NCBI RefSeq assembly: GCF_001642085.1
Contig: NZ_CP014699.1
Span: forward strand, 868,001 to 932,000
Direction of reading: 5' to 3'
DNA: 64,000 nucleotides
From: Streptococcus pantholopis
Lineage (GTDB): Bacteria; Bacillota; Bacilli; Lactobacillales; Streptococcaceae
Under the pieces are notes generated by a model. The model saw only the letters and a program-made list of their open reading frames with translations, ran no database searches and was not told the origin of the DNA. How positions within the stretch are numbered: the stretch's first letter is position 1; every line of letters starts with the position of its first letter. A program made the translations under genes and the position numbers. Positions 43,129 through 43,749 of the stretch are shown piece by piece.

Positions 43129-43239
43129 TTGAACACGCCCTAAAATCCTAGTGAAAAAGATGGCTGTTAGCGTGATGCAAGACATCACTTGCCATCCCCT
43201 ATTTTCATACGGATTTTTTCACGGGCTTTGTATCTTGTT
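43129..43239 (+). repeat. hairpin repeat, ATCC-arm type
   Basis: Left TTGAACACGCCCTAAAATCC, right GGATTTTTTCACGGGC, centre GTGATG-CAAGA-CATCAC. Confidence 0.85.
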
Positions 43240-43241
43240 AA

Positions 43242-43352
43242 TTGAACACGGCCTAAACGCTGCGGGAAAAAGATGGCTGTCAGCGTGATGCAAGACATCA
43301 CTTGCCATCCCCTATTTTCCTTTTGCGTTTTTAACGGCCTTTGTATCTTGTT
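43242..43352 (+). repeat. hairpin repeat, ACGC-arm type
   Basis: Left TTGAACACGGCCTAAACGC, right GCGTTTTTAACGGCC, centre GTGATG-CAAGA-CATCAC. Same as the copies at 43525 and 43639. Confidence 0.85.
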
Positions 43353-43355
43353 TAA

Positions 43356-43521
43356 TTGAACACGGCCTAAGAGCTGTGCAAAAAGAGACGCAGTCGTAGG
43401 AAGCGCAAGCTGACGTACGAATGTGGCTATTCTGTGAGTATAAAATTTCCTAAAGTCTTAATGACTCTTCGTCAATTTTTCTATTTTTGCTGTGAGCTTT
43501 TAACGGCCTTTGTATCTTGTT
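43356..43521 (+). repeat. hairpin repeat with about 55-bp extra insert, hybrid arms
   Basis: Left TTGAACACGGCCTAAGAGC, right GAGCTTTTAACGGCC, centre AGTC-TTAA-TGACT. The GAGC arm faces GAGC, so the outer arms do not pair; the insert (about 43386-43440) has its own inverted parts. Probably a recombinant copy. Confidence 0.75.
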
Positions 43522-43524
43522 TAA

Positions 43525-43635
43525 TTGAACACGGCCTAAACGCTGCGGGAAAAAGATGGCTGTCAGCGTGATGCAAGACATCACTTGCCATCCCCTATTT
43601 TCCTTTTGCGTTTTTAACGGCCTTTGTATCTTGTT
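43525..43635 (+). repeat. hairpin repeat, tandem copy
   Basis: Identical to the copy at 43639-43749; unit period is 114 bp. Confidence 0.9.
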
Positions 43636-43638
43636 TAA

Positions 43639-43749
43639 TTGAACACGGCCTAAACGCTGCGGGAAAAAGATGGCTGTCAGCGTGATGCAAGACATCACTT
43701 GCCATCCCCTATTTTCCTTTTGCGTTTTTAACGGCCTTTGTATCTTGTT
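43639..43749 (+). repeat. hairpin repeat directly upstream of GH1 copy 3
   Basis: GGCC base pair block, ACGC/GCGT arms, GTGATG/CATCAC centre. Ends 13 bp before the ATG at 43762 with GAAGGAGGG between. Confidence 0.9.

Follow-up and report, generated by a model that had tools for sequence, protein, structure and literature searches.

Copies of the repeat in the window

The window analysed here, a 64-kb stretch of the Streptococcus pantholopis genome (positions 868,001-932,000), contains 19 complete copies of a fold-back element of ~110 nt, each running from a left end of the TGAACACG type to a right end of the TTTGTATCTTGTT type. Right-end matches with up to two mismatches number 29 in this stretch, compared with 3.5 expected. 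Compact copies measure 109-113 nt, and the remaining ones carry inserts. Coordinates below are those of the window, and copies lie on the plus strand unless stated otherwise.

The gene starting at 6267 is preceded by a three-copy array, consisting of a compact copy (5709-5819), a 314-nt long copy with extra central sequence (5824-6137) and a further compact copy (6142-6252) whose right end is followed by 14 nt and then the start codon. A compact copy at 12825-12933 is followed by a long one of 417 nt (12937-13353), 23 nt ahead of the start at 13377, and another compact copy (18815-18925) lies 14 nt from the start at 18940, which belongs to an ABC-transporter ATPase-like gene scoring under the curated cut-offs. 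At 29607-29717, a compact copy with mismatched outer arms precedes a left-end fragment, while at 35351-35363 a right end for which no matching left end was found stands 16 nt before the start at 35380. Three compact copies follow, with outer arms GGGC/GGGC (37016-37126, mismatched), GGCC/GCCC (37132-37240, mismatched) and GGGC/GCCC (37246-37358), the last being 14 nt from the start at 37373.

The array near 43 kb opens with two compact copies, one with arms GCCC/GGGC and AAATCC/GGATTT (43130-43239) and one with GGCC/GGCC and AAACGC/GCGTTT (43243-43352). It continues with a 165-nt copy that has extra central sequence and a broken middle arm (43357-43521), a compact copy identical in sequence to 43243-43352 (43526-43635) and a final compact copy (43640-43749), which is separated from the start at 43762 by 12 nt containing GAAGGAGG. 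Further downstream lie a 258-nt long copy (56750-57007) and a compact copy 14 nt from the start at 57139 (57012-57124). The minus strand carries a compact copy (62401-62511), 11 nt from the start at 62389, and a 267-nt long copy (62982-63248), 13 nt from the start at 62968.

The long copies at 5824-6137, 12937-13353, 56750-57007 and 62982-63248 share a second repeated module, GCCGTAGC or GCCGTAAACG ... GGCTTACCGTCA together with variants, which is itself partly fold-back and may be boxB-like in role. Among the genes of the window, 2569-4035 encodes a 6-phospho-beta-glucosidase (above the curated cut-off) and 59868-61286 a second GH1 relative (under the curated cut-off); 43762-45201, directly after the 43-kb array, was judged by eye to be a third look-alike.

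The first-pass annotation, made from the sequence alone, had claimed about 20 intergenic copies in which outer arms (CGCCC/CGGGC, CGGCC/CGGCC, CGGGC/CGCCC) and middle arms change together. The copy alignment reproduces the listed covariation, and the copies at 29606, 37015 and 37131 do break the outer rule; that 43356 breaks the middle one was seen by eye. Rather than about 20, the copies number several hundred across the whole genome.

Architecture and reassortment of arms

The fold comprises the nested stems P1, P1b, P2 and P3 and a variable inner hairpin. P1 pairs GAACA with TGTaTC, P1b has the form GNNC/GNNC, and P3 consists of three variable pairs followed by AAAA/TTTT; between the stems stand the unpaired conserved motifs CTAA and, facing each other, AAAAAGAT and CCTATTTT. 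The conserved ends of the element, YTGAACACG ... TTTGTATCTT, pair in most copies as GAACA/TGTaTC or as covarying versions of it, forming a short, bulged stem. Copy lengths in the genome sample cluster at ~110, 160, 205, 255, 310, 360 and 415 nt. The sequence TTTGTATCTT was also considered as a promoter -10 box and was set aside, no conserved -35 being seen by eye.

Within the genome, 168 distinct compact copies were compared. The two variable pairs of P1b are Watson-Crick in 149 and 156 of them, and mismatches at the first variable pair (19 copies) are mostly GG (9) and CC (8). Each of the four main P2 classes occurs together with the outer classes CC and GC, and three of the four also with GG; left-arm combinations total 23, and P2 and P3 classes appear linked. 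The mismatched copies look like half-exchanges between copies, that is, recombinants; GG and CC mismatches are the product expected of such exchanges, which would account for the exceptions at 29606, 37015 and 37131.

Spread in the genome and the genus

Searching the 2,241,302-base genome with the right-end pattern CGNNCTTTGTATCTTGTT (up to two mismatches) gave 238 + 259 = 497 matches, and the reversed control gave 1. Complete copies number 276 in 864 kb of the 2.24-Mb genome, a sample composed of the window and 40 stretches picked around known matches.

The first-pass annotation had proposed a search of other streptococcal genomes with a covariance model. The model built here, for which 150 of 1820 candidates were scored and all 150 passed, recovered the family from 242 of the 247 Streptococcus genomes searched, with per-genome copy numbers that are lower bounds, as up to 15 matches were scored in each. 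In a family-level draw, 45 of 46 members of the genus had a match, compared with 9 of 51 non-members, and the matches outside Streptococcus were weak (E 1.7e-6 or worse). Around glmU of Streptococcus sp. 'caviae', whose GlmU is 76% identical to that of the window genome, two model matches were found (62.8 and 32 bits); none was present near two S. suis GlmU loci and seven from other genera. Four ordinary streptococcal genomes contain 18, 16, 15 and 25 matches. Set against the 497 right-end matches here, these numbers identify the S. pantholopis genome as a massive amplification of an old, Streptococcus-wide family.

Polarity beside genes

In S. pantholopis, 94 of 129 terminal right ends lie 6-23 nt (mode 14) ahead of an SD-preceded start on the same strand, compared with 3 of 102 when left ends were put through the mirror test. 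Of ten terminal right ends in the window, nine precede such starts, and the remaining one, at 58704, is a chance match. The arrays of this genome end directly upstream of the SD.

Copies in other genomes lie between the SD and the start codon or antisense at stops. Among 120 terminal copies (150 aligned copies minus 17 array-internal ones and 13 duplicate rows), contact with a CDS is made by the right end in 90 and by the left end in 9. A same-strand start lies within 30 nt of the right end in 53 (mostly 0-6 nt), and an opposite-strand stop does so in 51 (mostly -2 to 5 nt). Here, as for S. pantholopis above and for the P0 and gene-sense comparisons below, starts and stops were called by simple ORF rules independently of annotation, so that some calls are wrong or doubtful in both classes. 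For instance, 46 of the 120 were called antisense at stop codons, at least two of which (L170 and L235) are miscalled deoD starts. From the protein ends, we take the starts that bear elements to be those of dnaJ, carB, prmA, deoD, dapB, prfA and parC, and the stops presumably to be those of rpsO, rpsN and dnaK; the dnaK-dnaJ spacer can carry an element at each border. This polarity, with the right end against the coding sequence, is a new fact about the family.

Elements between the SD and the start codon

The pattern AAAGGAN{0,3}TGAACNCGNNCT, which joins an SD to the left end, occurs in 205 of 284 genomes, with 8 matches, counted by eye, for the reversed control. In 12 parsed cases, drawn from dnaJ, parC and two other genes and hence from few genes of related species, the GGA-P1 and P1-start distances add up to 7 in six, 8 in one and 9 in five; the search pattern fixes the left part of this spacing, so only the right part is free. 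The parsed case L359 (3) is a miscall that reads 5 by eye, and L344 is not an element. A further 18 pattern matches in 17 loci were unparsed, and by eye L356 gives 7 and L361 gives 10, several others being truncated left halves.

At dnaJ, the element is present in at least 26 of 30 loci examined, which were drawn from 176 pattern-bearing genomes (23 by filter, with L315, L316 and L324 added by eye). In 24 of 25 dnaJ loci, predicted folding reduces the path from SD to AUG, 106-132 nt long, to 7-21; the other is L342 with 36. Shuffled inserts gave a mean path of ~22, and 2-93 of 100 shuffles per locus did equally well. Most of the predicted dnaJ folds take up part of the SD in pairing, and the path remains at 9-21 in about half of those dnaJ leaders that bear an additional arm upstream.

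The gap from SD to element is longer at carB, deoD and prmA. P0, an arm lying further upstream, is able to compete with P1 for the left end at these starts, as it is in some leaders of dnaJ, which makes a two-state leader possible. Where a start triplet lies within 6 nt of the right end, P0 stems score 5.95 compared with 3.76 after shuffling, and 20 of 31 copies reach at least 5.5. The signal is weaker elsewhere, that score being reached in 11 of 30 where no gene was called, 4 of 43 at stops, and 1 of 12 and 1 of 15 in the other classes. In leaders of carB, deoD, prmA and dnaJ from other genomes (L183, L223, L182 and L167), P0 changes along with the left end of the element. Short reading frames with plausible SD spacing, a start in P0 and a stop inside or at the edge of the element were seen by eye in L167, L195 and L183.

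Evidence for insertion and mobility

The 101 arrays contain 225 junctions, all of 5-7 nt except one of 3. Adjacent junctions are identical in 60 of 124 comparisons, against 9.8 after shuffling, whereas the copies that they separate are less alike: neighbours share the P2 class in 52 of 152 cases, compared with 38 shuffled (maximum 54), and the P1b class in 90, compared with 58.6 shuffled. The right flank of the arrays repeats the junction in part (the shared prefix averages 1.71, compared with 1.17 after shuffling), and 37 of the 101 arrays have no shared right-flank prefix. Shared junctions between unlike neighbours favour serial insertion with a duplicated target over simple tandem duplication; serial insertion of unlike copies fits better, and both may occur.

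A filled and an empty site can be compared in the carA-carB spacer, where ATTTAA stands on both sides of an extra copy in L202 and once in L193; three other loci have ATGTAA on the left. Target-site duplication of the kind used to recognise MITEs was thus found in one filled/empty pair and in the array junctions, and no duplication was seen by eye around most old single copies. Two unlike versions of the element occupy the same site in the SD-AUG gap of carB in different genomes, and the element is absent there from two of 17 genomes with the pattern, S. pantholopis included. Some starts, that of dnaJ among them, are preceded by an SD and the truncated left half of another element, followed by a second SD and the present element. 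Taken together, the family behaves as a mobile element.

Neither an autonomous parent nor a transposase was found in 864 kb of the genome, both long left-right spans holding host-like genes. A Y1 (PF01797) transposase is present in 33 of 59 genomes and missing from 26, among them several with at least 13-15 copies (e.g., G002, G003 and G007), so that a Y1/HUH transposase is set aside as the mobiliser. S. pantholopis has one Y1 (IS200/IS605-type) transposase domain, at G000:C1:37663-38019.

Covariation and the pattern of mismatches

For comparison across other genomes, 153 matches yielded 150 aligned copies and 131 distinct rows. Among these 131 copies, 23 of 26 pairs vary on both sides, 96.6% of cells are paired, compared with 73.8% after shuffling, and double-change cells number 778, compared with 203. 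The covariation score is 0.596; shuffling gives 0.165, and sliding the partners gives no more than 0.110. These values come from an alignment fitted to the model, which leans towards structure, and from shuffles that ignore relatedness. Further pair types numbered 60, a value reached by 91 of 500 shuffles and hence not beyond the control. The covariation between arms reported in the first-pass annotation is therefore strong against both controls, and pairing of the arms is accepted as maintained, whether as RNA, as DNA or via hairpin-templated correction.

That annotation had gone on to equate compensating change with selection on the folded form, and this overreaches. Mismatches among 3340 cells comprise 47 G.T, 48 A.C and 64 of other kinds; G.T is no commoner than A.C, unlike in the SRP RNA stem of the same genus, which served as a small control (10 G.T and 0 A.C in 78 cells; 30 loci, with L285 unparsed, and 13 distinct arm pairs). 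Moreover, the variety within the S. pantholopis genome consists of a few arm classes reassorted among copies, with exceptions that resemble recombinants, and the complementary strand is predicted to fold more stably in 105 of the 131 copies. G.T and A.C number 21 and 17 in gene-sense copies and 10 and 13 in antisense copies. Copies of S. pantholopis show 97 G.T at P3.1 and 27 A.C at P2.1; with these two positions removed, G.T is somewhat commoner (20 compared with 10). At single loci, a few discrete versions and hardly any compensating change inside one version were seen by eye.

Explanations for the family

The best explanation, to which we assign a probability of about 0.55, is a Streptococcus-wide family of non-coding, mobile fold-back elements whose insertions are tolerated through a closed hairpin. 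A putative enzyme would insert the element beside SD-like sites rich in purines, duplicating a short target, and the same site would then receive further copies. The closed hairpin would be what makes the insertions tolerable: in S. pantholopis, the arms may close in the mRNA so that the ribosome meets the SD just downstream of the element, while in other genomes an SD upstream of it could be bridged over the base of the stem to the start codon. Matched arms would then be selected irrespective of the transcribed strand, and tolerance via a hairpin closed on either strand is proposed to produce the near-perfect Watson-Crick pairing. Recombination between copies that swaps inner segments would bring matched arm pairs into new combinations, with a minority of copies ending up mismatched.

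A narrower proposal places translation at the centre, with the mobile element lodging between the SD and AUG of core genes, closure of the hairpin restoring a spacing of 7-9 nt, and covariation being the price of this transparency. It is conceivable, at somewhat worse than even odds. The clearest cases are dnaJ and parC; in S. pantholopis, where the SD follows the array, no bridging is needed.

It is unlikely that the element is a cis-regulatory RNA leader (an attenuator, switch or stability element) selected by the host as folded RNA in the manner of a riboswitch or T-box. Many copies do occupy gene-sense 5' leaders, the arms covary in the 131 copies, P0 can compete with P1 in the 20 of 31 copies near start triplets, and dnaJ carries the element in nearly every locus examined. 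However, the mismatches show no excess of G.T over A.C even in gene-sense copies (21 and 17), 46 copies were called antisense at stops (at least two of them wrongly), one genome holds hundreds of copies, unlike versions occupy a single site, and a comparison of the window and 20 other loci with 4227 Rfam families gave no match.

We consider it similarly improbable that the arms match in the absence of selection, through hairpin-templated (quasi-palindrome) correction during replication or through conversion among copies. The strand symmetry of the mismatches (47 G.T, 48 A.C), the reassortment of arm classes within one genome (23 left-arm combinations) and the mismatched outer pair in 19 of 168 copies are all consistent with such a process. 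Against it, the internal loop AGAT/CCTA is almost invariant and uncorrected, and P3 retains its AAAA/TTTT sequence, which indicates that some constraint acts.

Membership in a known family (pneumococcal or S. suis BOX, RUP, SPRITE, or RAYT-moved REP/BIME) is very improbable despite the hairpin form, the intergenic arrays and the lengths of ~110 nt plus ~50-nt steps, given the distributions of BOXA1R and of the Y1_Tnp domain, the latter missing from 26 of 59 genomes, and the disjoint BOX and element sites in G207 (0/14).

If the preferred explanation of hairpin-tolerated mobile insertions is true, nearly every streptococcus holds structured insertions, numbering between a few and hundreds, and many of them lie in the leaders of core genes. 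They would provide a natural, replicated test of how widely a hairpin can part SD from AUG, and a rare case of a mobile element whose arms evolve by compensation. Two direct questions follow, namely which enzyme moves the element and why it turns its right end to the gene. Genus-wide presence, serial insertion and right-end polarity are the strongest new facts; mobility, genus-wide spread and gene-adjacent position lie beyond what the first-pass annotation could see from the window.

Comparison with known systems

The first-pass annotation had seen no sequence likeness to BOX, and this is borne out: the BOXA1R motif (sequence as quoted in PMC7291552; up to two mismatches) has 0 sites in the S. 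pantholopis genome. Identity with BOX is rejected on this ground and because BOXA1R occurs in 116 of 247 genomes, compared with 242 of 247 for the element model. In G207, none of 14 BOX sites overlaps a model match by eye, and among ten BOX loci examined, one (L278, 1399-1479, minus strand) has a truncated element copy directly beside BOX. The presence of BOXA1R in 116 of 247 genomes is itself far above the range given for BOX in the 2011 account.

Croucher et al. (2011; PMC3049150) describe BOX as nearly restricted to pneumococcus, S. mitis and S. suis and as over-represented between convergent genes. BOX and RepSU1, as outlined there, resemble the present element in being small, intergenic, presumably mobile hairpins of Streptococcus. 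They are built of two end modules of ~50 nt with a variable number of central modules of ~45-50 nt (PMC3049150), and the stepwise copy lengths of the element may reflect a comparable build. The element differs in occurring in 242 of 247 genomes with its right end against a gene, whereas BOX is reported to be narrow in range and over-represented between convergent genes (PMC3049150). RUP (~107 bp, IS630-like ends) and SPRITE (terminator-like, AAAA/TTTT ends) are likewise small interspersed repeats of a streptococcus; they are set apart here by their published descriptions rather than by a sequence model (PMC3049150). Topic and sequence searches of the open-licence literature returned no description of the family in the passages retrieved, the pneumococcal repeat paper being the closest (PMC3049150).

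MITEs, of which Correia/NEMIS, ERIC and Nezha are named in PMC3049150 and PMC3733652, share with the element a non-coding, fold-back form, short target repeats and a position beside genes. The element departs from them in that its terminal inverted repeats are very imperfect (GAACA and TGTaTC), no parent IS was found and its inner arms covary. To judge from its sequence and form, the family is MITE- or BOX-like in kind and BOX-unlike in sequence. In gene 38 of phage T4, an mRNA hairpin closes the spacer between SD and AUG and brings a distant SD to the start codon. The likeness lies in a hairpin that joins a distant SD and a start codon; the difference is that there it is a feature of a single gene, whereas here it is a repeated, apparently mobile element.
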